64,000 nt of DNA, taken from assembly GCF_030295765.1 (NCBI RefSeq), contig NZ_AP027293.1, forward strand, positions 108,194 through 172,193. Reading direction: 5' to 3'. Positions 21,802-58,374 of this stretch are shown here, one piece after another. Position 1 is the stretch's first letter; every line of letters starts with the position of its first letter. Origin of the DNA: Neptuniibacter halophilus. GTDB lineage: Bacteria > Pseudomonadota > Gammaproteobacteria > Pseudomonadales > Balneatricaceae. The notes beneath the pieces were generated by a model. It ran no database searches and had not been told where the DNA came from. It worked only from the letters and a program-made list of their open reading frames with translations. Both the position numbers and the translations under genes were made by a program.

Positions 21802-23100
21802 CTATTTTCTGCCGTGTGGGCTAATACCGTTACCAACGACTGGTTGGCGATTTTCTAACTGCTCTGCCAATGATTCGAAATCCACTTTTGCCCCGGTCCC
21901 CATAATGGCACCACTCAATACACGGCGATCCGCGCCCGAGAGGCCCACCTTTTCAGCATAGGATTCCCAATTGCTCAACACGGTCATGGACTGATCGATG
22001 ATCTGCTTAGCTTCGGTTTCTTTCAGACTGAAGTACTTGGCAGCGGATAGGCAATTATCCAAAGAACGATATCGCCCTCCGGGGCCAATACTGATCGCTT
22101 GCATAGCAGTTGATCCCGGCTGCGGAACAACATCATAAGCCGGAGATAACTGGTATTGGTTATCATCAGTGTTCTTCAGTAACCCGTGGTTACGAAGATG
22201 ATCATCGGTATTGCCCACCAGCACGTTAAAAACTAACCGGCGATAGAGCTCTATCTGATCGGTTGAACCGGCTCCGATCCTTAACAGCAGATCTGACAGT
22301 GCCGGATAAGCGAATACAGAGTCCAGATCCCCTTCCCTTACACGCGGCCTATACATTAACGCATGAGCGCTTATAAAGTGCCTGCGGCTCGTTTCAGCTG
22401 GCTCAACATCAAACCGTTTCACCAGAATCACAGAGCGACCAGCAACCGAGATCAACTCGGAATCAGCTGTCCGGATACCGCAATCGCGCATCATCAGAAA
22501 ACACATTTGTTCTGCTTTACTCTGGTCGAATAGATCATCTGGCCGTGTAAATTTGGCAATGTGCAAGGAGCCGTCTGAGTCCCTGACAACACTTTTGGGC
22601 CTAGCTCCCCCCATTGAGGAACCAGGCTCCAGCTGCTTTAACAGATCCGGGGTTATTTTCCCTTCGGCAATCAGCGTATGGATATTCTCATCGATAGCCT
22701 GGAGGCTTTCTCGGCTAGGGTAATCAGGTTCCGATTTGGGAGCTGAACGTGATAATGAGACACGAATAGCACCGACACCGGCCCCTTTGGTTGCCAACAA
22801 CTCTTCAAGCTTGTTTTGTGGGTGCCGGGAGTGCAGGGCCAGCATCAGTTTTCGCCCCCAGTTATCCGGCCCCCCGTCGAGTAATACTGCGGGCACCCCG
22901 TCATTTCCAAGAATCTGTTGAGTGCTTGATACCAGAGGTAGATTCACCGGGTCCAAAGCAAACGCATCTGGTCTGGCTAAATAGCTTTTGCCATACACAA
23001 ACTGGCCCTGACCTGCCCCAATGACCAAACGCCCCGCAAGGACAGGAGCACTCTCTATTGGCATATCTACAAACACCCAGGCTTCTTTAATCGGTTCCAT
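21802..23100 (-). CDS. hipA: HipA-family serine/threonine kinase toxin
   Basis: 432 residues of the HipA fold. The Gly-rich loop SSMGGARPK lies near residue 162, the catalytic NTDDHLRNHG near 298 and the metal-binding YDVVP shortly after. In E. coli HipA inhibits growth by phosphorylating glutamyl-tRNA synthetase; the substrate here is unknown. It follows hipB by 23 bases in one operon. Its C-terminal 30 residues carry KVDFESLAEQLENRQP followed by GI, a tail also seen on Fic and the polyvalent protein of this plasmid (see findings). Confidence 0.9.
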   Translation of the reverse strand: MEPIKEAWVFVDMPIESAPVLAGRLVIGAGQGQFVYGKSYLARPDAFALDPVNLPLVSSTQQILGNDGVPAVLLDGGPDNWGRKLMLALHSRHPQNKLEELLATKGAGVGAIRVSLSRSAPKSEPDYPSRESLQAIDENIHTLIAEGKITPDLLKQLEPGSSMGGARPKSVVRDSDGSLHIAKFTRPDDLFDQSKAEQMCFLMMRDCGIRTADSELISVAGRSVILVKRFDVEPAETSRRHFISAHALMYRPRVREGDLDSVFAYPALSDLLLRIGAGSTDQIELYRRLVFNVLVGNTDDHLRNHGLLKNTDDNQYQLSPAYDVVPQPGSTAMQAISIGPGGRYRSLDNCLSAAKYFSLKETEAKQIIDQSMTVLSNWESYAEKVGLSGADRRVLSGAIMGTGAKVDFESLAEQLENRQPVVGNGISPHGRK

Positions 23101-23123
23101 ATTGCTCTCCGCAGTGGATGTTC

Positions 23124-23441
23124 TTAGAAATCGTTATCCAATGATTTTGGTGGACGGACCCGTTGCTTAGTGGTCGAGTGATCCAGATAGCCAAGGTCAT
23201 CATCAACAAGACATACCTGATTCATACTGCTGGTGGCCCCGTAAAGCGCCAAGAGCTGCATGTAGGCCCCGATCCCGGTCCCAGGATCACCGGCTTCGAC
23301 CTTTTGGACAGTCGTTCTAGATAGTCCAACCTTCGCGGCAACATCTGCCTGCCGCCAGCCCCGGCGTTTCCGAGCCTCGGTGATACGCTGCCCGAGAGCA
23401 GAGAGTGCGGTTTCTGATTCGTAAGGAATTGATTTGCTCAT
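23124..23441 (-). CDS. hipB: HipB-like Xre-family antitoxin
   Basis: 105 residues with a canonical HTH_3 domain (about 12-65; QADVAAKVGLSRTTVQKVE). It is the likely antitoxin and autorepressor for the adjacent HipA kinase. The C-terminal 40 residues are probably disordered, as in HipB. An inverted repeat lies just upstream of the start. Confidence 0.85.
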   Translation of the reverse strand: MSKSIPYESETALSALGQRITEARKRRGWRQADVAAKVGLSRTTVQKVEAGDPGTGIGAYMQLLALYGATSSMNQVCLVDDDLGYLDHSTTKQRVRPPKSLDNDF

Positions 23442-23454
23442 GACTGCAATTCTA

Positions 23455-23475
23455 GTCCTAATTCATCATAAGGAC
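23455..23475 (-). promoter_or_regulatory. candidate HipB operator
   Basis: GTCCT (23455-23459) and AGGAC (23471-23475) are inverted arms separated by 11 bases, 14 bases before the hipB start. This resembles the spaced TATCC...GGATA operators of HipB in E. coli. Confidence 0.6.
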
Positions 23476-23600
23476 CATAATAGTGAGCATTTATTAAGTA
23501 GGCTGACCGCTCAACTTTTATCGGTTATCTATCTGCCTGTCCAAATCGCTTTTATCTGGATTCGTCCCAAGATTTTGTGCGGGTAAAAGTTTGGGGCAGA

Positions 23601-23717
23601 TCAGAGCTTCCAGGCGTCTGGAGCTATCCAATAAATGAGTATTGACGCAAGACCCAATCCGACTATTGTCATGATCCCGCCGTATCCATGCTCTTCAAAA
23701 TACTTTTTCAGCATCAT
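23601..23717 (-). CDS. tiny membrane protein (38 aa)
   Basis: A 38-codon gene: MMLKKYFEEHGYGG followed by a 20-residue hydrophobic segment (IMTIVGLGLASILIYWI) and the tail APDAWKL. It is preceded by the same TTAAC...GGAAAGG intergenic sequence as its upstream neighbours, which supports it as the last gene of the operon running from 25995. It is probably an inner-membrane peptide of unknown function. Confidence 0.5.
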   Translation of the reverse strand: MMLKKYFEEHGYGGIMTIVGLGLASILIYWIAPDAWKL

Positions 23718-23746
23718 CAAACTTTTCTATTTCCTTTCCGTGAAAG

Positions 23747-23977
23747 TTAAAGTTCTTGATCTATATGCTGCTTCAAGCCGTTCAGCGTGTTTTGAATAAA
23801 CCGATAATCCCCCGGTTTACCACCGTTCCATACCCGTTCGGCCTCTGCCTGCTTATCAACGGCAATCCAATCTAACCGGCTGTCGCCGCCCAGCTTTTCG
23901 GTAGCAACCAGGAACAGGTTACGATAGCTGTACAGGCCGCGTTTGATCTTGGTCTTCCTCAGTGCTGATTTAGCCAT
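23747..23977 (-). CDS. hypothetical protein, 76 aa
   Basis: A basic 76-residue protein; residues 35-55 (DWIAVDKQAEAERVWNGGKP) could be a small alpha/beta module. It overlaps the preceding gene by 8 bases, so it is translationally coupled within the small-gene operon. Confidence 0.55.
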   Translation of the reverse strand: MAKSALRKTKIKRGLYSYRNLFLVATEKLGGDSRLDWIAVDKQAEAERVWNGGKPGDYRFIQNTLNGLKQHIDQEL

Positions 23978-24164
23978 CGCTGCTCCCTCGCCTTTCCGTT
24001 AATCCTGAATTTTTTCTATTAACCAGCGCCCTCTCTGGGCACCACATTTGTTTCCCAGCAGAGCGGCCTTTTGTGCGCTCTACAATCCAGCCATCACCAG
24101 AACGCTCAATCAGACGCACCTCGTTGCCGCTCTTGGTGAAGATTTTCTTGTCGCCTGCTTTCAT
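23970..24164 (-). CDS. hypothetical protein, 64 aa, KOW/SH3-like
   Basis: 64 residues, basic. The beta-rich segment GNEVRLIERSGDGWIVER (about 13-30) looks like a small SH3/KOW barrel used for nucleic-acid binding. GGGGAGGACGC precedes the ATG. Member of the small-gene operon; function unknown. Confidence 0.55.
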   Translation of the reverse strand: MKAGDKKIFTKSGNEVRLIERSGDGWIVERTKGRSAGKQMWCPERALVNRKNSGLTERRGSSDG

Positions 24165-24191
24165 GCGTCCTCCCCGTGACTTTCCGTTAAC

Positions 24192-24482: not shown

Positions 24483-24499
24483 GTCTTCATTCCTTTCCG

Positions 24500-31534: not shown

Positions 31535-32728
31535 TCACTTTGGATTGGCAAATGAAATCCAATATCCATATTTCGACTGACTACCATGACCGGAGTTATA
31601 GGTCGATCCGCATACATATTTAGAGTTGCCTGAGGTAATACTACCGGTCCCATGGAATTGGTGAGTCTTTTCCCAGGTCCATCTAGCAACATGTGACCAG
31701 AAGTAATAAATGTCATGGGTGCTTGCGTCAGTGCCTGCAGGGGCCAGGACATTCGTACAGGCCGCATTTGTACCACTCCATGTACCCGTGCGAATTAAGG
31801 TTGCTGAGCCGCCACTACCCGGCTGTGTCCACACACCACCAACACAGGACACTAAATCCCCTGCGGCAGTAGTCCCGATTTGTTTATTCGTGCAGGCGCT
31901 ACCAACAGTCTGATTCCCATTTAAGAGCGCGATTTGGCCTATTAAGCTTTGTGTGGTTGTTATATTGCCATCTGCAGCAATACTTCCAGTCACATCGATA
32001 TCAACACCCTCGTATCGATCTGAAGTTACGTTAGTGGCATCAACATTGGTCGCGTCAATGTTAGTGAAATCACCCGTAGCCCCGGTTAGTACACCGACAT
32101 TGCTAATGTTATTCGTCTGCATGTCCAGAGCACCGGTCATGGTGTCGCCAGATCGTTTTACGTAGATCCCAGTACCATTATTTACATCAACCGTAGCCGT
32201 CATCACTCCTGAGTTATTTTCGGTGTAGGTAACAACACCCTTTAAGCTGTCTTTAGTGTCGGCCTCTGCTTGGCGCACAGCATGCCCAACTCCCAATGCT
32301 TTTGGTTGTCCTGCTACCAGAACAGCCGGCCAAGTCGTCAATGCTGTTGTGACACCAGCAACATTAGTAATTGTTGTTGTTGGGTCTGCCCCATATTTGT
32401 AGTTGGTAAACTCGAATGAACAAGGAAGGTAAGCAACAGTACCCCCCGTTGTAATGCCGCAATCTGCATTACTTTTTAGCCAGTCAGTTCCGACCCTAGC
32501 GCCTGGTACAGCACTTCCACCTTGATCGACAATCCACTCAGCGACTGCTCGGGAATGTTCGGCAATTTTATTGCCCAAGGTTTCAAAGTCGCGGCGTTCC
32601 ATCTTCTGGTTTAGCTTTTTTGCTCCAGCAGCAGACAGAATTACCGCTATAGCTAGGTAGAAACCTAACTCTAATAGAGTAAAGCCTTGTTGGTTCTTTG
32701 GGGGACGAACATTCATGTCAGGTTTCAT
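31535..32728 (-). CDS. pilV: PilV-like minor pilin/tip adhesin
   Basis: 397 residues with a type IV prepilin leader: MKPDMNVRPPKNQQG cleaved before FTLLELGFYL, with Glu at +5 and a long hydrophobic helix. The large C-terminal domain carries the conserved GWTQPG-like WTQPGSGGS and Cys pairs expected of PilV adhesins that select recipients in mating. IncI PilV ends are swapped by a shufflon; no inverted segments or recombinase are seen here, so this one is fixed. Last pil gene, 3 bases after the ATPase gene. Confidence 0.85.
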   Translation of the reverse strand: MKPDMNVRPPKNQQGFTLLELGFYLAIAVILSAAGAKKLNQKMERRDFETLGNKIAEHSRAVAEWIVDQGGSAVPGARVGTDWLKSNADCGITTGGTVAYLPCSFEFTNYKYGADPTTTITNVAGVTTALTTWPAVLVAGQPKALGVGHAVRQAEADTKDSLKGVVTYTENNSGVMTATVDVNNGTGIYVKRSGDTMTGALDMQTNNISNVGVLTGATGDFTNIDATNVDATNVTSDRYEGVDIDVTGSIAADGNITTTQSLIGQIALLNGNQTVGSACTNKQIGTTAAGDLVSCVGGVWTQPGSGGSATLIRTGTWSGTNAACTNVLAPAGTDASTHDIYYFWSHVARWTWEKTHQFHGTGSITSGNSKYVCGSTYNSGHGSQSKYGYWISFANPK

Positions 32729-32731
32729 TGA

Positions 32732-33697
32732 TTAATCCCTATTCATCGGTGCCATCGCTACTTGGCTTTGGCGAATATTGGCCTGTTGCCGTGCGATATC
32801 ATCTAACTGGACAAACTGACCATCCCTGAGTGCTTGTGCTACTCGCTGCCCCCCAGCCAAAAAGCTAAACCCTAATCGAGTTTTGCCAAGTTGAGTCTTC
32901 TTGCTTATGTTGATCGCCAGCCTCAGAGATTCACCTAAAATCAGGCGAGCATACTCTTGCCCATCACATAGTGTTAAAAACCTTGTTAGGGAGTCCACTG
33001 TCCCACTGGCATGAAAGGTGAATATGACCCGAGTGCCGTTTAACAATGCTTGAAGAACTTGGATTGCCGTATCACGATCTCGCACCTCTCCCACAAACAG
33101 GGTCGATTGGACCTTTGCTGGGAAGCACCGCATCATTGACCGGATCGCTGTTGAGAAATCGCCATCCATAACATGGCGCTGGTAACAAACTCCATTCTCA
33201 CCATAATCACCCTCCATATCGTATTCCGGAGGATCTTCCAACGCCCAGGCCACACCACCTTTTGTTGAAAGGAGGTAATTCAGGACTGCAGCTGAAGCGG
33301 TTGTTTTACCGACTCCCAATGGGCCTGAAATGAGGATCAACCCCCCATCTCTTTGTGTGTTCTCATTTACTAATTGGGATATGATCTCTGGAAACACAAT
33401 ACCTTCTGGGTTTTCCCCCACCAGGTTGGGTTTAAACCCCGGCATTCTCCGCAGACAATACACCTCCCCGCCCTTGCTTAACTCTAGATGCACGCGGTAA
33501 AGCTGAGAATTGAACGCCAGATATTGATCTTGACCAATGCCTAGCTTCAATTCATCACAGGCAGTTTTAAAGTCCCCCAATAAACTCAGCCACTTAGGAT
33601 CACCTCCCAGGTTCTGTTTCTGTCCGTTTATATAGCCACGGCTGCTGCTAAGTTGCTCTTTATTGATTGCGAGGTCGGTGTACTGCTGCAGATCCAT
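32732..33697 (-). CDS. PilT-like pilus ATPase
   Basis: 321 residues. Walker A ISGPLGVGKTTAS (about 122-134), Asp box EDPPEYD, Walker B-like LFVGEVRDRD and His box TFHASG are those of PilT/GspE secretion ATPases, in the short PilT-like form. It lies between pilS and pilV, where R64-type operons instead carry the pilT lytic transglycosylase and the pilU prepilin peptidase. A second, retraction-type motor in a thin-pilus operon is unusual. Confidence 0.85.
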   Translation of the reverse strand: MDLQQYTDLAINKEQLSSSRGYINGQKQNLGGDPKWLSLLGDFKTACDELKLGIGQDQYLAFNSQLYRVHLELSKGGEVYCLRRMPGFKPNLVGENPEGIVFPEIISQLVNENTQRDGGLILISGPLGVGKTTASAAVLNYLLSTKGGVAWALEDPPEYDMEGDYGENGVCYQRHVMDGDFSTAIRSMMRCFPAKVQSTLFVGEVRDRDTAIQVLQALLNGTRVIFTFHASGTVDSLTRFLTLCDGQEYARLILGESLRLAINISKKTQLGKTRLGFSFLAGGQRVAQALRDGQFVQLDDIARQQANIRQSQVAMAPMNRD

Positions 33698-33699
33698 AA

Positions 33700-34269
33700 T
33701 TAAGACTTTCTCATAATCACGTTTACAGATGCTGTTGAAACATCACATGCAGATGCAGCCGCAGCTGGGTCTAATGCCGCTCCCGGTGCCTTAACGGTGG
33801 TGCTTCCCACAATCACTTCATCTAAGAAGTTGGAAACGTATGTCACATAACGAAGGCAGGCAAATGGATCAACAGGATCCGTGATCTGTTTCGCTCCATT
33901 GGTAGCACCACCAGTCAAAGTACCTGAAGCAAAAACAGTCGAGTTACCCCAATAGTTGAAGATCGTAGATCCGCTCACAGAGCTTTCATGAGGGATTTTT
34001 GCATCGATCGCAAAATCATTGTCCAGAGCAGTGAATGGTGGGCGCGTTAACTTACCCGCCAAGTCGGTAAAGTAAGATTCAGTGGTTTTTGCAGCTGAAT
34101 CGCCTTCCGTATTTTTCAGGTATTTATACCCAATTGGACCGACAAAGGCCGCTACCAGCGCAAGGATTACCAAGCCAAACCCAAGTTCGACCAGAGTCAT
34201 ACCTGCTTCTTTGTTTTTGAACCCGCCAACAGGCCCGGTGGTACTATTTTTCATAGGTGCATTCTCCAT
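33700..34269 (-). CDS. pilS: PilS-like major pilin
   Basis: 189 residues. Type IV prepilin signal with cleavage in NKEAG/MTLVELGFGL (Glu at +5), then a 25-residue hydrophobic helix. A Cys pair in the C-terminal part (FACLRY and SACDVS) forms the D-region disulfide. Main structural subunit of the thin pilus. It directly follows pilR by 2 bases. Confidence 0.9.
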   Translation of the reverse strand: MENAPMKNSTTGPVGGFKNKEAGMTLVELGFGLVILALVAAFVGPIGYKYLKNTEGDSAAKTTESYFTDLAGKLTRPPFTALDNDFAIDAKIPHESSVSGSTIFNYWGNSTVFASGTLTGGATNGAKQITDPVDPFACLRYVTYVSNFLDEVIVGSTTVKAPGAALDPAAAASACDVSTASVNVIMRKS

Positions 34270-34271
34270 TT

Positions 34272-35324
34272 TTAAACCTGAGAGATTGAAGTAGACAAAG
34301 AAAAGTAGCTGAGAACGACCATGCCCATGAATAGGTAAAGGATCGTCGTAGCTACAGCATCAAGAACCTTATTGATCGCCTTAAAGCTTGCATCCACACG
34401 TTCTTCAAGACGCTCGACTGAGATGGCATAGAAATCTTTCTTTCCTCCGCCATCTCCCATAGAAATGATTACCTCGTTGAGGTCTTCCGGCATCATCGGA
34501 TTATTTGCTAAAGGGTTACCATGCCCACGCTCTATAGCACCGTGCATCATATTGAGACAGGAGATCACCCAAGAACTGGTGGAAGAGCGCTTCAGGAATT
34601 GAATAGCTTCCTTTTCTGCATACGCTTCAGAAAGAGGGCCGATAGAATCCAGGAAAGACATCGCCACCACATCCCGGTGTAAAGCCCACGGCTGTAAATG
34701 GTCCATAGCGAACCGGCGATATTTGCCATTCTTCCACTCAACAAACGACCAAAAGAGAGCAAATACCAAACCGGCCAAAACAATGAAGGTAATTGGCACC
34801 CAGATAAACAGATTATCCGCCACCTGATAGGTGAACTGTGCCAGGGGCTCCCATTTTGCGACTGGCTTTATCTTGGTGAAAATGTCGAAAAGAAACTCTT
34901 TTACAAACAGTAACAAACCGACCAACATCAGGAATCGAACCAAGAAAGATCTGGCTACGCCTTCAATAGCCAGTCGATGCTTCCCTTTCAAAGTCAGACG
35001 ATCATTCGCTTTCGCCAACCCCTCGGCTAACTGACCAGTTTGCTCCGCTGCTGCAATGACCAAGTATTCATCTTCAGGAATGAAGGGCTTAATTGCCTGA
35101 TGGAAGTCATTCCCTGCCCCGGAACCTGTTTCCTGCAGCTGTTCCAGAATCAATGCCTTTTTTTTGCCGGCATTACCTTTCTTTTTCTGGGCTGTGATCA
35201 TGTCACCGTATGCAGAGGACAAAGAACCTAAACGCGCCCTAAAACCAAGGAGATCATAGAGCCACTTCCGATCCTTAACGCTCAGAACACGGCTACGCTT
35301 CGCGAATATCGATTTGAGATTCAT
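34272..35324 (-). CDS. pilR: PilR-like inner-membrane platform protein
   Basis: 350 residues of the GspF/PilC/TcpE family: two cytoplasmic helical domains and three membrane segments (about 130-150, 180-205 and 325-348). It anchors the assembly ATPase at the inner membrane. Its start overlaps the pilQ stop by 4 bases. Confidence 0.9.
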   Translation of the reverse strand: MNLKSIFAKRSRVLSVKDRKWLYDLLGFRARLGSLSSAYGDMITAQKKKGNAGKKKALILEQLQETGSGAGNDFHQAIKPFIPEDEYLVIAAAEQTGQLAEGLAKANDRLTLKGKHRLAIEGVARSFLVRFLMLVGLLLFVKEFLFDIFTKIKPVAKWEPLAQFTYQVADNLFIWVPITFIVLAGLVFALFWSFVEWKNGKYRRFAMDHLQPWALHRDVVAMSFLDSIGPLSEAYAEKEAIQFLKRSSTSSWVISCLNMMHGAIERGHGNPLANNPMMPEDLNEVIISMGDGGGKKDFYAISVERLEERVDASFKAINKVLDAVATTILYLFMGMVVLSYFSLSTSISQV

Positions 35325-37090
35325 ACATCACCTACTAACACCGTGGCTGATTCATACTCGGCACCAAGTAGTGGTGCGACTTCAGAACCAGTTAAAGCAC
35401 CATCGGAGAGCAAGGAATCTTCACTTACCAAGCCCATACGGTCCTCTACATCAATCGGGCTTATTTGTCCGTAGAGCATCTTTTTAATGGCATGATGGTA
35501 AGCGGTAAAACCGACAGCGTGCTGCCCATAGAAGCTTTCTAAGGAGTCGTCATCAGAGAGAACACGCGATGACTCTCTCGAATTTAACCAAGCTTTTTGT
35601 GCTTCAGAAACTTTCCCTTTGCTGACCTGCTCTCTTATTGAGTCATCAGGCATCATGGTTTCGACGCATGCCACACGACCGACAAGGCCGTTTTGGCAAT
35701 CTGGGCAGCCTTCATAATTTCTGAAGCGAACATTTTTCAGATGTTTAAAACCATGGCCTTGTACGAGTCGGGACAAAAGGCTTTTTGGAATAACCCCCTG
35801 TTCTATAAGACCATCTGTTTCGAGCTGAATACTCTGTCCATCCCCCCCATCAACCATGTAGTCGCCCAAGCGATATGAACACTGCTGGCACAGGCGCGGG
35901 AGCAATCTCTGAAAAACGATTCCTTTAATAAATCCCGCAGAAGACAATAGCGACCATGGCAGGTCCATCTCATTCAAACGTATATACGCATCAAATGCGG
36001 AATTACCGTGCAGAGTACATAAAGTGGTATGCCCGGTCAGAGCCGCGTGAGCTGCACTTTTAGCCGATGCGGCATTTCGCATTTCCCCCTGAAGAATAAA
36101 ATCCGGGTCACGGCGCAGTAGAGCCTTCAAATGACGATCCCACGCTTTATCTTCGGTCTCAGTGTTTTCATTGGATTTCACCGCAGTCACCTGAGTATGG
36201 ATAACCCCTGGTATCTTGAATTCGACCGGATCCTCCACCGTCACGATCATCTTTCTTCCAGCGTACTCTTTTACCAAATGCCCCAATACAGTCGCTGCCG
36301 TAGTGGTTTTACCGTCCCCGGTAGCACCAACGAAAATTACTAAACCGCCCGCTCCCTTGAGCATCTTCGATAGCAACATATTTTGTTGATCGGATTCATA
36401 TCCAAGAGTGAGCAAATTTCCATTACTAAAGTCTTTGTCCAAATCCAAAAGACGGAGCGTGACATGTACGGTATCTCTCTCTCCATTGATCTCGGCATCC
36501 TGATAACGGAGTCGATATCTGTGATCATCTGGCCCGGTACGATCTGTGACTGTTGCGGCCTGTGTAAGCTCTGGTTGATATGAATTCTTTGTTGTACCGG
36601 AGTTTCCAGTTTCACTGCTGTAAATAAACCGGCAGAGTTGCAAAAGCTTGTTGTTGGTGAATACGGTATTTTTGGGTCTATATCTCTGTAGCTCTCCATG
36701 CACCCGCATTTCAATCCGAGGATCATTCTTTTCCGCAAAAATATGGATATCACTGGCCGCGACCGTTACCGCATAATCGAAGACCTCACTAAAGAGTTTC
36801 TTGGATTCAGAAGGTGAGATTTCCTCATCATCTGACTGAAACTCATGCAAAGAGGCGATTTCGTCTGGGCTTACTCGAAAGTAAGTAACTCCTCTTTCTT
36901 TCCCTATGTACCCTTGCAGTTTTGCTCTCTCTTGCAGGCTCAGCTCGTTAACGTGAAATACGTCAACATTAGCTCCTGAAGCAGTCGGCACCGCGAACAT
37001 AAGGGTTAAATTCTTTAACTGAACTGGTAACGTCTGACCATCAATCGTACTGGCAACTGTCTTACCTTTGACTTGGTTATGTAGGTTCAT
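35321..37090 (-). CDS. pilQ: PilQ-like pilus assembly ATPase
   Basis: 589 residues of the GspE/PilB family. Walker A VGATGDGKTTTAAT (about 256-269), EDPVEFK Asp box, QGEMRNAASA Walker B region and a His box in LCTLHGNSAF. A Cys-rich zinc region (CQQC and CPDC, about 400-465) is present. Provides energy for pilin polymerisation. The N-terminal 120 residues are the usual partner-binding part. Overlaps pilP and pilR by 4 bases each. Confidence 0.92.
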   Translation of the reverse strand: MNLHNQVKGKTVASTIDGQTLPVQLKNLTLMFAVPTASGANVDVFHVNELSLQERAKLQGYIGKERGVTYFRVSPDEIASLHEFQSDDEEISPSESKKLFSEVFDYAVTVAASDIHIFAEKNDPRIEMRVHGELQRYRPKNTVFTNNKLLQLCRFIYSSETGNSGTTKNSYQPELTQAATVTDRTGPDDHRYRLRYQDAEINGERDTVHVTLRLLDLDKDFSNGNLLTLGYESDQQNMLLSKMLKGAGGLVIFVGATGDGKTTTAATVLGHLVKEYAGRKMIVTVEDPVEFKIPGVIHTQVTAVKSNENTETEDKAWDRHLKALLRRDPDFILQGEMRNAASAKSAAHAALTGHTTLCTLHGNSAFDAYIRLNEMDLPWSLLSSAGFIKGIVFQRLLPRLCQQCSYRLGDYMVDGGDGQSIQLETDGLIEQGVIPKSLLSRLVQGHGFKHLKNVRFRNYEGCPDCQNGLVGRVACVETMMPDDSIREQVSKGKVSEAQKAWLNSRESSRVLSDDDSLESFYGQHAVGFTAYHHAIKKMLYGQISPIDVEDRMGLVSEDSLLSDGALTGSEVAPLLGAEYESATVLVGDV

Positions 37091-37668
37091 GATTCCTCTC
37101 CAGCCTCAGAATAAAAAACCTTACTGACGGTTTTTCCTTTCTGCAGTTCGAGATATTCCGCACTAACGGACAACACTACCCAACCGTTCAAGTTGGAGCC
37201 CTTTTTGATTGATTGCTGACGTTTGTTAATGACCACATCGGCTGTCGGATCTTTGGGGTTACCCCAAATTGAAAGGAGTGCAACCGGCGTACTAAAACCG
37301 CTGCTAGAGCGGTCTTCACCAGACCGCTGGACAACTGAACCTGCATCGATCGCCTGATCTAAAGAGGATGTTAATAATTTCTCCATTGCACCGAATGGCG
37401 AAAGAATTTCCTGTTGTACCGATGGTTGATTACCTTCAGTCTCTTTGATGGCGTTTAATGAAGCAGTAATGCTCGCAATTTTTTTATACTTTGCATCAAG
37501 ATGGTCAAGCTTCTCTATTTCTAGAGTTCGATCTACCTTACCTGCTGGAACTGAGTCCATAAGGGCTTCAATCTCTTCGTCAGCCATCACTGGTTGGAAT
37601 GTCAATACGGCAGGCACCAACAGCAATGCCTGAAAATTTGGCTTAATTGATAACATAGGCACCTTCAA
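37087..37668 (-). CDS. pilP: PilP-like pilus protein
   Basis: 193 residues with an N-terminal signal (LLVPAVLTFQPVMA) and a C-terminal beta domain (about 125-190) with GWVVLSVSAEYLELQKG, matching PilP proteins that bridge the inner-membrane complex to the secretin. It overlaps the pilO end by 26 bases. Confidence 0.85.
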   Translation of the reverse strand: MKVPMLSIKPNFQALLLVPAVLTFQPVMADEEIEALMDSVPAGKVDRTLEIEKLDHLDAKYKKIASITASLNAIKETEGNQPSVQQEILSPFGAMEKLLTSSLDQAIDAGSVVQRSGEDRSSSGFSTPVALLSIWGNPKDPTADVVINKRQQSIKKGSNLNGWVVLSVSAEYLELQKGKTVSKVFYSEAGEES

Positions 37669-38956
37669 CTTTTATATTTAACTCTGATCCGCTCTGTTCA
37701 ACCCGGATAGATTTGGCCTTAGCCCACCCCAAATCTCCGAGACCACCTGCAACGCTGACTGCATCGGTATACCGCCCCTGCATCTCCCAAGCACCTTCCC
37801 TTTTAATGAGATTCGATGGTGCCAAGGATCCCCCACTGATATTCGATTTCGCAGGGTTAGCAATTTTGGTTTCCAGCCCGTTGTTAGCAAACGTCATTAG
37901 TTGTTCAGTGAACTCCAATATGTTTTCCCCAGCTTGTACGTTTTGGTTTTGGGGAAATTGGATATAGAACGAGCAATTAGCTGTATGCCCTTGAGGGCTG
38001 ACATCCACATGATCGCATCGAGGAGTGAGGTAATTGAGCGCATACGATGTGGAGAAATTTTCCGGGTTTATAAAACTGACCAGGCAATTTCCGGACGTAT
38101 CGCAGCTTGCTGACCGGAAAGGCCAAGGACTGTCAAATAGCTGCTTACCTTCTAAAGATTGTGCAACCACATTTAAGCTTTCTTTAAAGCTCGGCTGGGA
38201 CAGTAGTTTTTTGTAATAATCCGCAACTGCAGCTTTTGACGCTTCAACCTGTTTACGTCTGATATCTTCATCTGATTCCCCAAAGGAGATCACCCCGAAT
38301 TGGATACCCAGTACAACGACCCCGGCCACAATGCCTGTGAGCATGAGCGCATTCTTAACCGTGTCTCCGGAGGCGCTTTTTAAAACAACGCTGTTCCAAT
38401 CCTCATCTGCAAAAGCTTTGAATATTGAACCGAGTGTAATTTCTGACTCTTCGGTATCGACATCTTTTACACCTGACCCGACCAAGGCACGTTTGTGATT
38501 AGCGCTTTCAGCCAGAGTCAGGTGTTCTTGGGCAATCTCCGTAACTTGTTCGAGGCTGAGGTTCGCATCACTTTCGACAATCACCGTTCCATTGACGATG
38601 AGGCTTGTCCAATACCCCGAGTCTGTTCTTTCAATGACTATCCAGGCAGGAGAGTCTTTTGCCTCTGAGTTTTCGTGCAGATTGGAATAGGTATGCTGGT
38701 AGTGGGCATACAATGCTGCTAACGGGTAACCTGTCTTGATACCCAGCGTTCCTAAATCAGCCAAACCAACCTGGACAACTTCAGAATAAAGCCGAAGCTT
38801 CACAACGCCAGGCTTGGCAATTCCCATTTCCTTAATGGCTGCTTTGGCTAACGCTTTGGGATTGTAATCGTCGTCACCATCCTTTTTGTCGTTTAGCCAT
38901 TCAACCCCTGTCACGATAGTCCGATCTAGGTATTCGAATGTAGAGGACTCATGCAT
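37643..38956 (-). CDS. pilO: PilO-like pilus protein
   Basis: 437 residues: a cytoplasmic N-terminal half, one membrane segment (about 205-228, MLTGIVAGVVVLGIQFGVI), then a periplasmic coiled coil and a Cys-bearing beta region. This is the bitopic layout of R64 PilO/TcpD. It lies between the secretin and pilP genes. Confidence 0.85.
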   Translation of the reverse strand: MHESSTFEYLDRTIVTGVEWLNDKKDGDDDYNPKALAKAAIKEMGIAKPGVVKLRLYSEVVQVGLADLGTLGIKTGYPLAALYAHYQHTYSNLHENSEAKDSPAWIVIERTDSGYWTSLIVNGTVIVESDANLSLEQVTEIAQEHLTLAESANHKRALVGSGVKDVDTEESEITLGSIFKAFADEDWNSVVLKSASGDTVKNALMLTGIVAGVVVLGIQFGVISFGESDEDIRRKQVEASKAAVADYYKKLLSQPSFKESLNVVAQSLEGKQLFDSPWPFRSASCDTSGNCLVSFINPENFSTSYALNYLTPRCDHVDVSPQGHTANCSFYIQFPQNQNVQAGENILEFTEQLMTFANNGLETKIANPAKSNISGGSLAPSNLIKREGAWEMQGRYTDAVSVAGGLGDLGWAKAKSIRVEQSGSELNIKVEGAYVIN

Positions 38957-38962
38957 ACCTGA

Positions 38963-40531
38963 TTAGCCTCGGCTGATATACGGAGTTACAAAAATAACCA
39001 GCAGGTCTTTACCTTTACCCGATGCTTGTCCACCACCCAAGGCCCAGAAGTCATCTCTGCCGGTTCCCTCTGATGTGGAAGAAAGGTTCTTATTGATGTA
39101 GCCCGTCAGCATGGCTGTTTCACCTTCCTTTATAACTTGGCTAGTTTTGAATTCTTTCTGAGTAAGTTGTGCAAAGCGCTGCGTGAAATCTCCAGAAGAG
39201 ATATCTTCAAACGGCAGATCTCGGGACATAGTGGTGACGAGCTGAAGGATGACACGATTATCTTCAAGGATTCTCGGTGTCAGGCTCATATCAAAGCCAG
39301 GCCGGATCGTTGCCTTCGTCGTTGAGAATGTAGTAACACCCTCATTAACGGTTTGTGTAGTTTCGGACGGATATTCTTTGATGCTGATGTCACGCAGCAC
39401 TGCTGGAATGTTATTCAGTACAGTACGTGTCTCTCGGGTCATTACTTGAACCCGTGCTTTGGAAGATAGGGCCTGCAAAATAACTTTTGAGCCAGTGAGC
39501 CGGCCGCTGTTTACATTCGTTGAGATTTCATTAACAGGGCTATTAGATAGCGTTGGGCGGCGTGACACCCCAGAGATCGCTAATTCACCAAGGTCGGCCA
39601 ACAGAGAATCCCATACAACCCCAATATCTTCATTGTCGGTACTGGTTACCCGGACAACTTCGATATCAAGTGCCACCTGACTTGTAAGGTGGCGATTTTC
39701 GACCTTAAGAAAACGATCAACGGCATCAAGCTTTTCCGGCGTATCTGTCACAATTACAGCCCCTGAATTACCCAATACATGGGCAGATCCGTAAGGAGAC
39801 AGCATGCTTGCGATTGTTTCCTGATAAGACTCAAAGGAGGCGGTTTGAACTTCAGAAGTGAGAGAAGTACTCATACCACCTTCAGTATCCGTAGTCGTTG
39901 CACCCTCGAACTTAGCGTTCATTATTTCTTTAGTTTGCAGGTCCAGGCGGAAAGTTCGTGTGTCCAGTTTATAGAGCGTCACATCACTATCGGTATACTT
40001 CCAATGAATGTTGAATGCGCTCGCAATAGTATTCAGTGCCTGTTCTGCGGAACCCTGCAATTTCAGCACTTCCTGCATCGCTAAAGGTGACTGTTTCTTC
40101 TGATTATCAGTAATCAGGCTATCGATGATTGAGGAACCATCCACTGAACTGGTATCAATATTACTGCTGCTGTCCTGCAGCTGTTCAGTTACGATCGTAT
40201 CTACGGTATAGATATCCTGACCAACCCGAACAGGCTTACCAATCTGCATAGAGAGATTGCTGACGTAGTATTTCAAGCTCAATGGACGAGTAGCATTCAG
40301 GTAAACCTGCTTGCGCAAAAAGCCCGGCAGAGGTTCAGGTTCTTCGTAGGTTTCCCCGGATATAAACGGAGTCGTATGCCTCTTGAAACCGGCATTCTCT
40401 AGACGCACCATATCCAGTCGTTCTTCCTGGAATGCAGATGCATTCTCAACCTGCGGTGCAATCGTCTTATCAACACACCCAGCAAGGGATATGGCCGCAG
40501 CCGCAAGTAAAGCAGATTTAATCGGGCTCAT
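38963..40531 (-). CDS. pilN: PilN-like lipoprotein secretin
   Basis: 522 residues with a lipoprotein signal (lipobox LAGC, Cys19), N-domains, and the conserved secretin domain at the C-terminus (from about 345; TRETRTVLNNIPAVLRD then the late TAMLTGYIN). It forms the outer-membrane gate through which the pilus passes. Overlaps the preceding gene by 4 bases. Confidence 0.92.
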   Translation of the reverse strand: MSPIKSALLAAAAISLAGCVDKTIAPQVENASAFQEERLDMVRLENAGFKRHTTPFISGETYEEPEPLPGFLRKQVYLNATRPLSLKYYVSNLSMQIGKPVRVGQDIYTVDTIVTEQLQDSSSNIDTSSVDGSSIIDSLITDNQKKQSPLAMQEVLKLQGSAEQALNTIASAFNIHWKYTDSDVTLYKLDTRTFRLDLQTKEIMNAKFEGATTTDTEGGMSTSLTSEVQTASFESYQETIASMLSPYGSAHVLGNSGAVIVTDTPEKLDAVDRFLKVENRHLTSQVALDIEVVRVTSTDNEDIGVVWDSLLADLGELAISGVSRRPTLSNSPVNEISTNVNSGRLTGSKVILQALSSKARVQVMTRETRTVLNNIPAVLRDISIKEYPSETTQTVNEGVTTFSTTKATIRPGFDMSLTPRILEDNRVILQLVTTMSRDLPFEDISSGDFTQRFAQLTQKEFKTSQVIKEGETAMLTGYINKNLSSTSEGTGRDDFWALGGGQASGKGKDLLVIFVTPYISRG

Positions 40532-41106
40532 CGGATCACCACTGTCTTGTTGGAATAGTATTCGGGCTCAAGGTCACTTCCATCGTTCTGCAACGCAGAA
40601 AATAGGCCCTCAACAGCCATATCAAATGTGCCGAAGAAATAAGCGTTCGCTTGAATCGTTTGCCCCTTTCGGGTTTCCCAAACAACCGACCACTGACTCT
40701 GGTCATCCCATTTTTTAAGCTGGTTCTTAACGGTTAACCCAGTGCTCACTGACCACATCTGCTCAGTCACCAGTGTCTTCCCAGTCACAAATACGCGGAG
40801 AGGCAAGCCTGCTACGAGTTGCTGAGCCACTTCAGCAGCGCTTCCTCGTAAAGCTCCTGAGCGTTTATGAAAAAGAGGTTCCGCAGAATAGCGAAGCGTC
40901 AACCCGGCCTGCTCGGCTACAGATGTCAAAGCTTGTTCCAGTGACCCCGGTGTAACAGGCACAAGAAGGTCTGAAACAGATTCTACGTTGCTGTAAGCCG
41001 GCTTATCTTGGGCGACTGGTTCAGAAGGAGGAGATATTTGTGTGAGTGCCTGACACCCAGGTAATAAAGCCACGGCAATTGCGGCAAAAATGACTTTGCG
41101 ATTCAT
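40528..41106 (-). CDS. pilL: PilL-like lipoprotein (TcpQ C-terminal domain)
   Basis: 192 residues, lipoprotein signal MNRKVIFAAIAVALLPGC (Cys18). A secretin N0-like domain (about 45-115) is followed by the PilL_C/TcpQ module: QLKKWDDQSQWSVVWETRKG (about 138-157) and a closing EYYSNKTVVIR. This domain helps secretin assembly. R64 PilL is longer; here its functions seem split over two genes. Confidence 0.8.
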   Translation of the reverse strand: MNRKVIFAAIAVALLPGCQALTQISPPSEPVAQDKPAYSNVESVSDLLVPVTPGSLEQALTSVAEQAGLTLRYSAEPLFHKRSGALRGSAAEVAQQLVAGLPLRVFVTGKTLVTEQMWSVSTGLTVKNQLKKWDDQSQWSVVWETRKGQTIQANAYFFGTFDMAVEGLFSALQNDGSDLEPEYYSNKTVVIR

Positions 41107-41597
41107 TATTCGGCTTCTCTGATTGGTTCGAATGCAAGCATCTGATTGCGATAGATTCTTGCCGTGGCGGTTAAGCTAAAGTGATCGATGATGGCTTGAA
41201 GAACTCCTTCGCGGTGGTTTGAACCGAATGTAAGGCCTCGATCGGTACTCACATCGTCAACCAACCACACAGAGACCGGGTATCCAAGACATTTACCTAC
41301 TCGGTCAATATTGTCTTGGACCCGGCCAGCAGGGAGGGTGCATTGATACTTGAATGAGTCGTGCTTTTCTTCAGAAGCTGGTTTGTGAACATACCCTTCC
41401 TGGATCTGCTCAACGGGATCTCCTCCAGCTATCCGTTCCCACTCTGTATCGGTCAATCCATGAAGGGCCTTTTCATCAACGGGGATGTATGCCCGGTGAT
41501 TCCCAATGGCGTTACCGGCAACCCCAGATATCGGCATTGCTATCGCAGCACTTAACAAAACAGCCTTTTTAAAATCTTTCATCGTTTGTTTTAGCAT
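41106..41597 (-). CDS. TcpQ-like pilus accessory protein, first gene of the pil operon
   Basis: 163 residues; signal peptide (MKDFKKAVLLSAAIAMPISGV) and a C-terminal domain of TcpQ type (CTLPAGRVQDNIDRVGKCLG, about 85-104, then a closing ARIYRNQMLAFEP). Cysteines at both ends of that segment could form a disulfide. The stop shares a base with the next ATG. Likely partner of the secretin. Confidence 0.75.
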   Translation of the reverse strand: MLKQTMKDFKKAVLLSAAIAMPISGVAGNAIGNHRAYIPVDEKALHGLTDTEWERIAGGDPVEQIQEGYVHKPASEEKHDSFKYQCTLPAGRVQDNIDRVGKCLGYPVSVWLVDDVSTDRGLTFGSNHREGVLQAIIDHFSLTATARIYRNQMLAFEPIREAE

Positions 41598-53963: not shown

Positions 53964-55187
53964 CTACTGGGGGTCTATGTTGATTCCTTTTGGCTCGGGG
54001 GTAATTGAGTCCTCAATCTCCCGTGCGAGCTGGTCCATATCTATTTTTTGCATATTCAGCCCGGCAGCTGGCAGCTTAATTTTATAACGTGTGCTGCGGC
54101 CCCCACCGGGCAATTTTTCAAGGCACCCCATCTCAACCAAAGCGGCCAGATCGCGGGTTGCTGTTGCTCGGCTGGTGGCGGCAATGCTCTTGTACTTACT
54201 GGCATTGATGCCCAGTGTGAATTCGTCAGGTTCGGCATCCAGTAACCGGTTGAGTACCTTCTTCTGTCGATCCGCCAGGTCTAAATCTTGGAAGTGTGCC
54301 CAAAACCGGGATTTATCCAGTACCCGCATAAAGCGGCTCACACCGCGCTCCATGGCCTGCTTGAGGGTTTCTAAAAACCAACTAAGCCATGAGGTGATAT
54401 CCATATCGCCCTTCTGAGCGGCTTCCAGTGCATCGTAGTATGCATTGCGGTGACGCATGAAGGCTGCGCTCATGCTGTAGAAACGGACACTGGTTTGCTC
54501 ATCTTGCGCTAAGGCCCGGTCAGCAACTGCTCGGGTCACTCGACCATTTCCATCAGAGAACGGGTGTAACGTCACCAGCCACAAATGAGCGATGCCGGCG
54601 CGGATAAGGCCGTCCAGATTGGCTGAGTCTTCATTGAACCATTTGAGGAACCCGGCCAGTTCAGTGGCCAGAGTCTCGCTGGGGGGCGCAATGAAGTGAA
54701 TGATTTCCTTACGACCTTGCCTGGATACAACGGCCATTGGTTGTCCTGGTTGATCCTGTCGTAGATCTCCGATGATCGCATGAGGATCCATAAACACGGG
54801 GCGCTCGACAAACAAGCTTTGCTGCCACCGGCATAGGCAGTCTTTGTTCAATGGCGTATCGGTTGTTGTTACGGCTTCACATAGCATTTGCACCAGCTGT
54901 TCTGTTTCCGGTGTACCACGTTCCACGCCCCAGTTATCTAATCCTAAGCGCCGGGCAGCAGAGGATCGGACGGACGCTGCATTGAGCATTTCCCCTTCAA
55001 TAGCACTGGTCTCGATGGCATTCTGGACCAGTACATCCATTTGAGATGCAAGATTTGTTTCGGGTGACAGGTGAGCGGCATGGCCTATCAGGCGACCCTG
55101 TAGAATTCGTATCTCATTTATCAGAGGCATCAAACTGGTTGTGTCCCATTGGAACGTGGGCCAGTCTTGCTGTTGCCAGATATACAT
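53964..55187 (-). CDS. Fic-family AMPylating enzyme
   Basis: 407 residues from the ATG at 55187 (GAGG upstream; the frame extends to 55220 without one). N-terminal DUF4172-type helices carry the auto-inhibitory motif TSAIEGE (about residue 61), the catalytic loop HPFSDGNGRVTR is near 207, and a winged-helix domain follows (about 290-370). Fic enzymes transfer AMP or other nucleotides to hydroxyls of target proteins; the intact inhibitory Glu suggests a regulated state. The last 28 residues carry KIDMDQLAREIEDSI then PEPKGI, a tail shared with HipA and the polyvalent protein. Confidence 0.9.
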   Translation of the reverse strand: MYIWQQQDWPTFQWDTTSLMPLINEIRILQGRLIGHAAHLSPETNLASQMDVLVQNAIETSAIEGEMLNAASVRSSAARRLGLDNWGVERGTPETEQLVQMLCEAVTTTDTPLNKDCLCRWQQSLFVERPVFMDPHAIIGDLRQDQPGQPMAVVSRQGRKEIIHFIAPPSETLATELAGFLKWFNEDSANLDGLIRAGIAHLWLVTLHPFSDGNGRVTRAVADRALAQDEQTSVRFYSMSAAFMRHRNAYYDALEAAQKGDMDITSWLSWFLETLKQAMERGVSRFMRVLDKSRFWAHFQDLDLADRQKKVLNRLLDAEPDEFTLGINASKYKSIAATSRATATRDLAALVEMGCLEKLPGGGRSTRYKIKLPAAGLNMQKIDMDQLAREIEDSITPEPKGINIDPQ

Positions 55188-55250: not shown

Positions 55251-55730
55251 TTAATTATGCAGAATATTGAGGCGATTAAAAAGGTGGGTAGCTTTATTGC
55301 CATCTTCCCCCGCTATCGAAGGGGGGGCTAAGGACCATTCTTTATATCGGATTGGAGAGGCGCTGACCTCTTGCCGGCGCTCAGGGAAAATAGACATCTC
55401 TATTTCCTTAGCCAGCTGTTCCAGATCGATATCGTGGAGAATGGAGGCCTCAGATTCATGTAACAGTCGTATTCCCTTTCCTGGTTCCGGTGGATTCAGC
55501 AGCAGATCAATCTTGCCTTCCTGCAAGGTCGATACGCAGGCCAGTATCTCAGAGTTGTGGTCATGGAAGCCCAGGGCATCTCCCAGCGCTCCTATGTTCT
55601 TCAGATCCTCAGGGCTGACCTTAATGCGGCATGCACCGCAGAAGCCGTCACGACAATGGCTGGTGGGCGTGAGTCCACTCCCTTCCAGTGATTCTAGAAT
55701 GCTTTTACCTGTTTTCTGTTGATACTGCAT
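55251..55730 (-). CDS. 2Fe-2S ferredoxin-like protein with extended C-terminus
   Basis: 159 residues. The first 80 are a plant-type 2Fe-2S ferredoxin: Cys26, Cys31 and Cys34 (HCRDGFCGACRIK) plus Cys65 (ILACVS). A tail follows with DIDLEQLAKEIEMSIFPE (residues 100-117), matching the C-terminal motif of the Fic protein encoded next. A plasmid ferredoxin could feed electrons to an adjacent redox enzyme; the PP-loop proteins are candidates. The 37-bp upstream palindrome site suggests control with its neighbours. Confidence 0.8.
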   Translation of the reverse strand: MQYQQKTGKSILESLEGSGLTPTSHCRDGFCGACRIKVSPEDLKNIGALGDALGFHDHNSEILACVSTLQEGKIDLLLNPPEPGKGIRLLHESEASILHDIDLEQLAKEIEMSIFPERRQEVSASPIRYKEWSLAPPSIAGEDGNKATHLFNRLNILHN

Positions 55731-55781: not shown

Positions 55782-55800
55782 TCCCTCCTGAATGTGGTCA

Positions 55801-58374
55801 TTAAGCGTTGAGGTTAATCCCTGATGTCGGGGGCTGGTGATTTAGGATTTCCGATAGTTCATCGAAATCGATCTTGGAATGGAGGCTCTGGGCATCAAAC
55901 ATGGTATCGAGCACACCTTTTATCTCCGGTGTAAGGTCGATGCCAATCTCTTCACTGACCTGATAAGTCTCCTTCATAAAGGATTTCATGCGCTCCATGG
56001 CTTTGGGCGCTGGGCTGGATGAAGTGTCCAGATCCATGAAGTACTGCTCACAGGCCTCTGCCCATCGTTCATTCTGTTCGGTGGTGAACGGTTGGCCTGG
56101 TTCTGCACCAACGAACTGACAAATCTTGCTGTAGTCTTCTTTCAGACAGCCGGGAGCGGTTTCCAGTGTGGCTTGCTTGATGAACTCATCTAAGAAGATG
56201 TGACAGGATTCATGGAGCAATGTAGATGGATTATGGTTTTCAGAAAGTAGCATCAGGAATCGACTGTCCATGGGATTGCGGATCACAGCCCCTAAAGGCC
56301 CTGAAGGGGTATAATCCATATAGCCGCCCGGTTCCTGCTGGTTACCGAAGACTATCTCCAGTGGAGTATTAACCTTCTCGTAGCTATCCAATGGAATCTT
56401 ATTTCGCCGTTCCGATGGGATGTTTTGACGGTTTACAGTTTGTCTTGCCTCATACTCCCCTGCCAGGTACAGATAGCGGGTCCGAGATGGGCGCATCTCA
56501 AATTCCAGTTTCTGAGCATAGTCCTGGAGCTGTTTTGGAGAAGTTTGTTGTGCCAGGTTGGCGATGGTTTCTGAAATACGAGTACCAAGCATCGTCGCTG
56601 CGTCAGAGATAGGTATCCCGCGCTGGTCGGCCAGATCAAATACAATACGGAGGTCATTCAAGTGCTTAAAGTAGTATCTCTTAGTCTCTTCTGACACCTG
56701 GTTGAAGTTTTTGGCCTGTCCACCCACCGCAAACTCTTCTATCCCTTGGATACCGTGTTGAAGCTCATGGAGAATGACTTGAAGTGCTTGAGCTCCATTC
56801 TGGGCTTTGATCTGTAGGTGAGCATTGGGAGGTGTGCCGTGCAACGTGCCCGATGCCTTTGGTAAATCAGGATGAATCTGAATTTCAGTCGGAATATCCA
56901 GCATCTGAGGGTAATGAGAAAAGACCAGATCATGGTTCAAAACCTGACTGAGCCGACCCGAGAATACGGAAGAAGGAACATAGTTTTCAGTGATTTCTTT
57001 CTGTTCTCTTGGGGGCAGTCCACTGAAGTTTCCTGCGATGCCGAAGTCTCGCATTGCCACCCGTTCATAGTAATCATTGGTGGGTGTAAATACATTAGGA
57101 TCGATCATGGCCTGTGAATCATCGATTTCAAAGCGCCACTTATCATCGATTCCTTGATGCCATCCTGTAAGCTTTCGAATCCGGTCCATCTCTATGCCCC
57201 GCTCCTGCATTTTGCGGGCTTGAGTGAGCGTGGTCCAGTTACGGTTTGCAGCCTTGATACCTGCAAACTGATAAAGCACCTTGTCATACTCAGGGGCCTG
57301 CTGATACAGAATATTGATAGAGGTGTCGTTGTAACTGCCGACATTGCCAACCGCGCTTTTGATTTGGCCTGGCTCAAAAACAATGAAATGTTCGGCGGTA
57401 TCCGGTGTATGCCATAGTGCTCCAGCGGATCGGTCTATAACTCCATCATATCCAGCCCGTTGAATGATTTGCAGCGGTAGGCCTTCATAGCCATGGGATT
57501 GCGCATAATCGGATACTATGTTGATGGCATCGACTGTAGAGGTTGATGCATTGAGCTGTCGTGCTAACCGTCTGGCCTCTACCATGCTGCCTTTATGGTC
57601 GATCACAATAGAAGAAGCAATTGCGCCTAATGGGAATGCTTTGTCGTGGGTGCCACGGCTGTAGGGGGTATCGGGTGAGATTGTAAATGGTCTGTTCATT
57701 CTGAGGTGGACAGGATAAACCGCCCCCCCGTCTTGGGCTAACCGTTCCTTAATACGATCATAGGAAACATCTTCAAACTTGAACTGAGACTTCCGCAGCG
57801 TATCAAAAATCGCCTGGGCTTTCGCTTGAAGCTCGGGTGAGTTTGGCGTGGCGTAGTTCTCAGAGGCATCGTTGGGATCGCTGCTAAAGTAAAAGGCTTT
57901 ACCGAGTCGGCTAGTACCATTCCGCGCCGCTTCATCGAAGTGAGAAAAATCAGCGAAAGAACCGTGATAAAACGTGCGTGGATGACCGTTCCCATCCACC
58001 AGCTTGCTTTCCTGCATCCACTCCATCAGATTGCTATTTACATGCAGAGGGGCTTTAGGGAGGTTCTGGGATAGATAATCTATGACCTCCTCGTTATCCA
58101 GGAGGCTAGCCAGCGTAGGATTCGATTTCAGGTGATCAGGCAGGTCCAGCTCCCGGCCTATTTCGGCAGCGATGGTGCTGACATGTTGAATATCAACTCC
58201 TGCTGATTGATACAGGGTTTCAGGCTTGATACCCATCCGCATCCCCATGGTGGTGTACCACCGATCCCACAGGCTGGCGATGGTTTGGGCAACTTCGGGG
58301 CGGCTGCCGGGCAACGCTTCTATTTTTGAGCTGATCTCTTGCAAAATCTGAGCAGACATAGTGTGTACCATCAA
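55801..58374 (-). CDS. large polyvalent protein with ART-like and two zincin-like regions
   Basis: 857 residues. An ADP-ribosyltransferase-like region of the polyvalent-protein type begins at RTFYHGSFADFSHFD (about 132-146) and continues AFYFSSDPNDASENY. A zincin-like HELQHGIQG lies near 535 and a second, HESCHIFLDEF, near 720; both fit HExxH metal sites. Such multi-domain proteins are carried by phages and conjugative elements and are thought to be injected with DNA to modify host proteins. The C-terminus carries KIDFDELSEILNHQPP followed by GIN. The start may be the ATG at 58359 instead; no clear ribosome site decides. Confidence 0.75.
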   Translation of the reverse strand: MMVHTMSAQILQEISSKIEALPGSRPEVAQTIASLWDRWYTTMGMRMGIKPETLYQSAGVDIQHVSTIAAEIGRELDLPDHLKSNPTLASLLDNEEVIDYLSQNLPKAPLHVNSNLMEWMQESKLVDGNGHPRTFYHGSFADFSHFDEAARNGTSRLGKAFYFSSDPNDASENYATPNSPELQAKAQAIFDTLRKSQFKFEDVSYDRIKERLAQDGGAVYPVHLRMNRPFTISPDTPYSRGTHDKAFPLGAIASSIVIDHKGSMVEARRLARQLNASTSTVDAINIVSDYAQSHGYEGLPLQIIQRAGYDGVIDRSAGALWHTPDTAEHFIVFEPGQIKSAVGNVGSYNDTSINILYQQAPEYDKVLYQFAGIKAANRNWTTLTQARKMQERGIEMDRIRKLTGWHQGIDDKWRFEIDDSQAMIDPNVFTPTNDYYERVAMRDFGIAGNFSGLPPREQKEITENYVPSSVFSGRLSQVLNHDLVFSHYPQMLDIPTEIQIHPDLPKASGTLHGTPPNAHLQIKAQNGAQALQVILHELQHGIQGIEEFAVGGQAKNFNQVSEETKRYYFKHLNDLRIVFDLADQRGIPISDAATMLGTRISETIANLAQQTSPKQLQDYAQKLEFEMRPSRTRYLYLAGEYEARQTVNRQNIPSERRNKIPLDSYEKVNTPLEIVFGNQQEPGGYMDYTPSGPLGAVIRNPMDSRFLMLLSENHNPSTLLHESCHIFLDEFIKQATLETAPGCLKEDYSKICQFVGAEPGQPFTTEQNERWAEACEQYFMDLDTSSSPAPKAMERMKSFMKETYQVSEEIGIDLTPEIKGVLDTMFDAQSLHSKIDFDELSEILNHQPPTSGINLNA

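Follow-up and report, generated by a model that had tools for sequence, protein, structure and literature searches.

A short motif shared by a HipA, a Fic, a polyvalent protein and a ferredoxin on a Neptuniibacter halophilus plasmid, with a possible role in type IVB conjugative export

Why should four unrelated proteins of one plasmid share a short peptide, which three of them carry at the C-terminus? The question is raised by a 64,000-nucleotide stretch of Neptuniibacter halophilus DNA (contig NZ_AP027293.1, positions 108,194 to 172,193; hereafter the window), which is C2:108194-172193 of a 172,193-bp plasmid (C2) in a genome with a 3.94-Mb chromosome. We find that a HipA-family toxin, a Fic protein, a polyvalent protein and a ferredoxin, all encoded on the minus strand, carry a common short motif, and that all four peptides lie exactly where a preliminary description of this DNA had placed them. 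The carriers and their tags are listed below; coordinates without a prefix refer to the window and those prefixed C2 to the plasmid.

21802..23100, minus strand: HipA-family toxin, carrier 1 (432 amino acids (aa); PF07804, E 1e-43; PF13657, E 1.6e-5)
21805..21891, minus strand: tag 1, the last 29 residues of HipA, mostly past the aligned end of its relatives
23124..23441, minus strand: HipB-like gene (105 aa) without a tag, preceding HipA; assigned by position and by the helix-turn-helix (HTH) genes that adjoin HipA homologues
53964..55187, minus strand: Fic protein (DUF4172-Fic, SoFic-like), carrier 2 (407 aa; PF13776, E 2e-29; PF02661, E 3e-11; PADLOC SoFic, E 3e-44)
53967..54050, minus strand: tag 2, the last 28 residues of Fic
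55251..55730, minus strand: 2Fe-2S ferredoxin (YfaE-like), carrier 3 (159 aa; PF00111 at residues 5-69, E 1.2e-5; two of three plasmid matches are named YfaE)
55380..55436, minus strand: tag 3, an internal copy, C-terminal to the ferredoxin domain
55801..58374, minus strand: ART/LPD23/HExxH polyvalent protein, carrier 4 (857 aa; PF18760, E 5e-21; PF18838, E 2e-20)
55804..55878, minus strand: tag 4, the last 25 residues of the polyvalent protein

The carriers are indeed unrelated, with HipA_C, DUF4172 plus Fic, ART-PolyVal plus LPD23, and Fer2 as their respective Pfam domains; the HExxH element of the polyvalent protein is an HESCH read in its translation, and no zincin family is on its Pfam scan list. 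Three of the four are toxin-like. The polyvalent, ferredoxin and Fic genes follow one another on the same strand, 70 and 63 bp apart, and likely form one operon, and HipA lies ~31 kb from them, 23 bp after the HipB-like gene. The tags read [FLM]xxL[AS]xx[IL], with 11-residue cores at 21856-21888 (HipA), 54015-54047 (Fic), 55843-55875 (polyvalent) and 55401-55433 (ferredoxin), and the net charge of the four tails ranges from 0 to -4. From a 14-residue core to the stop there are 15 residues in HipA, 14 in Fic, 11 in the polyvalent protein and 47 in the ferredoxin, whose 18-residue motif stretch occupies residues 100-117 of 159, so the tag is not always terminal. A glycine-isoleucine (G-I) tip is present in the HipA, Fic and polyvalent tags, the same three carriers for which it had been described.

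The motif common to these four proteins is real. Leave-one-out hidden Markov models (HMMs) were run against 476 open reading frames (ORFs) of at least 120 aa, 141 from the plasmid and 335 from a 400-kb chromosomal sample, with ranks taken among the 473 non-training ORFs. The held-out Fic ranks first (E 3e-5), as do the ferredoxin (E 1e-3) and HipA (E 0.18), and the polyvalent protein is third (E 2.4) with two chromosomal proteins ahead of it; only Fic and the ferredoxin are significant on their own. A profile of all four tags recovers the four carriers from the 4.1-Mb genome at E 1e-12 to 3e-10, by construction, with no further match up to E 3, where one chromosomal match follows. At the DNA level the 42-nt cores are identical at 18-27 of 42 bases in pairwise comparison, and 1-3 of the 3-8 identical residues per pair use the same codon; this bears out the earlier remark that the codons differ, and recent copying is rejected on this ground. 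No plasmid nearly identical to window positions 40001-64000 was found.

On Fic and HipA the tags are extensions past the part to which relatives align. Fic alignments end at residues 368-377 of 407 in the 40 matches listed of 787 records, and three Fic homologues terminate 3 residues past the aligned core; for HipA, 25 matches were listed out of 727 records, and their alignments stop between residues 395 and 420 of 432. Past its aligned core HipA has 33 residues here, 25 in S. frequens and 24 in P. mendocina, the last two being encoded on type IVB plasmids and ending in SGPRL, and six other HipAs have 3, 4, 8, 10, 17 and 18. An extension exclusive to type IVB plasmids is no longer claimed, since the six others also run 3-18 residues past the core, against 24-33 for the three on type IVB plasmids, and their plasmids may themselves carry type IVB genes. 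The eight plasmid matches of the polyvalent protein reach residue 680 at most, and the ferredoxin matches three records at residues 8-77 only. Ordinary family ends are rejected as the source of the tags, since the Fic and HipA relatives examined lack them, in keeping with the initial expectation for these two families.

What could recognise such a tag? Judged by homology, the plasmid encodes a type IVB (Dot/Icm, IncI-like; MPF_I) conjugation system, with the following components, and a pilus cluster.

C2:44071-46440: DotA/TraY homologue (E 5e-79; 266.6 bits, above the cut-off of 100)
C2:58200-60656: DotL/TrbC homologue (E 2e-60, unrounded 2.3e-60; below the equivalog cut-off)
C2:61096-62493: DotM homologue (E 6e-34; below the equivalog cut-off)
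Elsewhere on the plasmid: DotG/TraO homologue (E 2e-13, unrounded 1.8e-13; below the equivalog cut-off)
Elsewhere on the plasmid: DotI homologue (E 1e-9)
31535..41597, minus strand: type IV pilus cluster (IncI-type pilus genes), with two T2SSE, PilS, Secretin and TcpQ among ten ORFs

A TrbN-like protein is also encoded. The closest coupling proteins found are those of an Amphritea metagenome-assembled genome (58%) and of Marinobacterium stanieri (55%). A genome-contig search returned two coupling-protein relatives, a search of 390 genomes drawn from the order at E <=1e-100 returned the plasmid's own genome only, and viral contigs contained none. On pMAQU01, which is typed MPF_I, a protein near DotA passes the NCBIfam IcmW cut-off (108.5 bits vs 100; L022 36707-37231), and the IcmW counterparts of the S. 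frequens plasmid (81.5 bits) and the P. mendocina plasmid (92.7 bits) fall below that cut-off. Several other genes of the plasmid were noted in passing. A 338-aa protein at C2:35974-36990 (L002:15974-16990), 54% identical to Amphritea and Marinobacterium counterparts, has a weak Phage_integrase match (E 4e-4, below cut-off) and is perhaps an integrase or an atypical relaxase. A 591-aa PAPS-reductase/DndC-like protein lies at 61749-63524 on the minus strand (PADLOC DndC, E 3e-44), and both pMAQU01 and the S. frequens plasmid likewise have annotated members of the PAPS-reductase family. Three 403-aa ORFs with identical first 25 and last 40 residues occur at 30091-31302, C2:6314-7525 and C2:24508-25719, the first of them a Mutator-family transposase.

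A possible fifth carrier, orf74, lies in the transfer region outside the window (C2:79457-81190, 577 aa). It matches no Pfam family up to E 5; its front part is conserved, its end is acidic, and a Q/P-rich linker lies between the two. Its C-terminus reads NLDFSELGNEIDQMFSTNPKAEVGM, that of a Marinobacterium stanieri homologue (28% identity) GLDLELLGSEVDSMFAESTSGISR, and that of a metagenomic homologue, P0003, SLDLGAISNEIDSMFPAQADNFGMNR. Beside orf74 lies a 3929-aa protein with N6-methylase, SNF2 and helicase domains (C2:67656-79445). The four-tag matrix gives orf74 a score of 10.6, and since 3.5 chance matches of at least 10 are expected in shuffled plasmid ORFs, this score alone proves nothing. 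Independent evidence comes from the two homologues, which end in the same layout. Between orf74 and P0003, 115 of 334 residues are identical in the front part, 18 of 43 in the linker, 25 of 73 after it, 2 of 11 just before the tail and 12 of 26 in the tail itself. A matrix built from the three orf74 tails and applied to 140 plasmid C-termini at distances of 9-17 from the end ranks the polyvalent protein first, Fic second and HipA fourth (chance 9e-6); at distances of 0-30 the ranks are 2, 3 and 6 (4e-5). When the matrix is built from just the two foreign tails, the same three proteins rank 8, 2 and 5 (1.3e-4) or 6, 3 and 11 (4e-4), and with 335 chromosomal C-termini added (475 in total, distances 9-17) they rank 3, 4 and 6, and 18, 3 and 8. 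Over whole proteins the orf74 matrix places the ferredoxin tag second of 141, behind orf74, with the other three tags outside the first 12. The link between the orf74 tail and the tags is thus significant, moderate and post hoc. Among the best 8000 candidates scored, the homologue search found only P0003 besides orf74 itself, and a search with the first 345 residues found nothing beyond orf74.

Is the tag found on other elements? The preliminary description had predicted that a profile search would reveal enrichment on mobile elements elsewhere, and this is not borne out. Across 192 relatives and the genomes of the two closest plasmids, the four-tag profile has no convincing match outside this plasmid; weak matches appear in 6 of the 192 (E 0.004-0.07), and of these six loci only one lies close to the end of its frame, a short one, where the match is poor. 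When the Fic tail was compared with 5.8 billion proteins by a method that needs shared exact 5-residue words and similar protein length, Fic itself was the only return. Enrichment on a wider set of elements is unsupported. A different kind of ending was seen on the S. frequens and P. mendocina type IVB plasmids, where unrelated proteins (HipA, Fic, methylases, NADAR, LPD23) have similar short tips such as SGPRL, PRLG, PRMG and LPGL (L027 33673-34938; L052 1552-2757; L021, L028, L030, L031). An expectation-maximization (EM) motif of these tips, derived from S. frequens tails, places held-out P. mendocina ORFs above the chromosomal ORFs of the N. halophilus genome (p 8e-5; the chromosomal control comes from an unrelated genome, and the P. 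mendocina plasmid is represented by 100 of its 252 kb) and is weak on pMAQU01 (p 0.01); plain regular expressions give modest differences only. A family-wide tip of P/G plus a hydrophobic residue is a lead only.

We consider the chances about even that the tag acts as a translocation signal, recruiting its carriers to the type IVB conjugation system that the plasmid encodes, because the motif is confined to this plasmid, Fic and HipA bear it as a C-terminal addition, type IVB genes are present, the orf74 family has similar tails, and precedents exist. To this extent the preliminary proposal of an export tag for a conjugative system stands, without its wider enrichment. Such a signal would comprise an acidic, probably helical stretch, [IVL]-D-[FLM]-x-x-[LI]-x-x-[EQI]-[ILV], followed 7-12 residues on by a G-[IM] tip, which the ferredoxin lacks. 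The coupling complex of DotL/TrbC and DotM/TrbA might read it, perhaps through an IcmW-like adaptor, so that HipA (without its HTH partner), Fic, the ART/HExxH polyvalent protein and the ferredoxin would enter the recipient with the plasmid and act there; the orf74 tail may be an older form of the tag. More tentatively, and at somewhat less than even odds, the plasmid may have evolved a modular tag for export, which was either copied from a core transfer protein or is shared with one, with mating delivering toxins plus a redox helper and each related plasmid family using its own version.

Several observations weigh against export. The copy in the ferredoxin is not terminal and has no G-I tip, and the hydrophobic moments of the cores do not exceed those of shuffles (fractions 0.21-0.74). 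The candidate adaptor, a 157-aa protein adjoining DotA, matches IcmW weakly (E 5e-5; 23 bits vs a cut-off of 100), and a profile comparison between the IcmW candidate of this plasmid and the group from other plasmids is also weak (hhalign probability 20%, E 0.001). No relaxase was identified on this plasmid. The resemblance of orf74 to the tags was first spotted by eye among tails and tested later, and the four-tag profile does not detect the orf74 tails, including the Marinobacterium one. In the closest relatives, Marinobacterium and Amphritea, no other protein has a clear tag: 4 of 84 Marinobacterium ORFs reach the best C-terminal scores of 10-12, none with a G-I tip, compared with 2 of 335 chromosomal ORFs of the N. 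halophilus genome that reach 10, and all 23 Amphritea ORFs score below 8. The SGPRL tip is missing from a second S. frequens HipA, which ends in DDRGGE, and the EM tip motif is not enriched on the plasmid studied here (p 0.54).

The main rival, which we regard as rather unlikely, is that the tag serves for docking and has no part in export. The carriers would then share a plasmid-encoded partner: by mimicking the end of orf74, the tags would direct the toxins and the ferredoxin to the protein that binds orf74, e.g., a DNA-processing or inhibitor protein. The layout of orf74 together with its tail, a layout we take to be that of single-strand DNA-binding (SSB) proteins, and its position next to the 3929-aa SNF2/methylase protein are consistent with docking, and the internal ferredoxin tag is as compatible with docking as with export. 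The tags lack the free terminal Phe of SSB tips, and orf74 has no recognisable Pfam family; docking on the coupling complex would be the export reading itself. Quite improbable is a regulatory degron or anti-toxicity element, through which a protease adaptor or chaperone would bind the tag and keep the toxins low in the host: in its favour, the HipB-like gene is untagged and two of the carriers are of toxin families, but the ferredoxin and the similar, conserved orf74 tail are left unexplained. That the tags are ordinary family features, resemble one another by chance or stem from a recently copied DNA end is highly improbable, the weak polyvalent match when left out being set against the leave-one-out ranks, the untagged Fic and HipA relatives and the divergent DNA cores.

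Recruitment to the conjugation system has counterparts among known systems, compared here on the basis of passages from the papers cited. The Fic toxin VbhT, encoded on pVbh, carries the BID domain of the relaxase and is exported during mating by the conjugative system (PMC5675462). Both VbhT and the Bartonella Beps resemble our case in that a Fic toxin has an added C-terminal element which a core transfer protein of its conjugation system has too; they differ in that their BID is a domain and belongs to a VirB-type system, whereas here ~25 residues of different sequence accompany a type IVB system (PMC5675462). For VbhT the shared core protein is the relaxase and export is demonstrated, whereas here it would be orf74, and export is proposed by analogy (PMC5675462). 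Our Pfam scan of the four carriers, up to E 0.001, contains no BID-type family.

Closer in secretion class, the Legionella Dot/Icm coupling complexes read short C-terminal signals (PMC7251119, PMC5802825): LvgA reads FxxxLxxxK, with F, L and K at i, i+4 and i+8 of a C-terminal helix (PMC7251119), DotM reads a Glu-rich acidic E-block (PMC5802825), and RalF, as cited in PMC7251119, uses a C-terminal hydrophobic residue as its signal. Like the tags, these signals are short, linear and near the C-terminus, one helical and one acidic, and the coupling complex is of the same DotL/DotM class. The tags do not match the LvgA-type FxxxLxxxK, their spacing being [FLM]xxLxxx[IL], and none of the four contains an EExxE E-block. 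No LvgA homologue was seen on the plasmid, where no search was aimed at one. The Legionella system serves delivery into host cells, whereas ours belongs to a conjugative plasmid; in this respect TrbC and TrbA of an IncM plasmid are DotL and DotM homologues (PMC6112013), and a type IVB system on a Pseudomonas putida genomic island delivers a toxin into bacteria (PMC9519443). Polyvalent proteins are predicted to be delivered with DNA and, like carrier 4, combine ART and HExxH domains in one protein; a shared terminal tag, which sets ours apart, is not described in the passages of that work considered here (PMC5512222). No such motif is named in the titles and abstract openings of the open-licence papers listed. 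If the tag does direct export, it would provide a readable sequence code for the protein cargo of type IVB conjugation systems, and the delivery of toxins between bacteria during mating, known from VbhT, would reach a further secretion class and include HipA and ART/zincin proteins.

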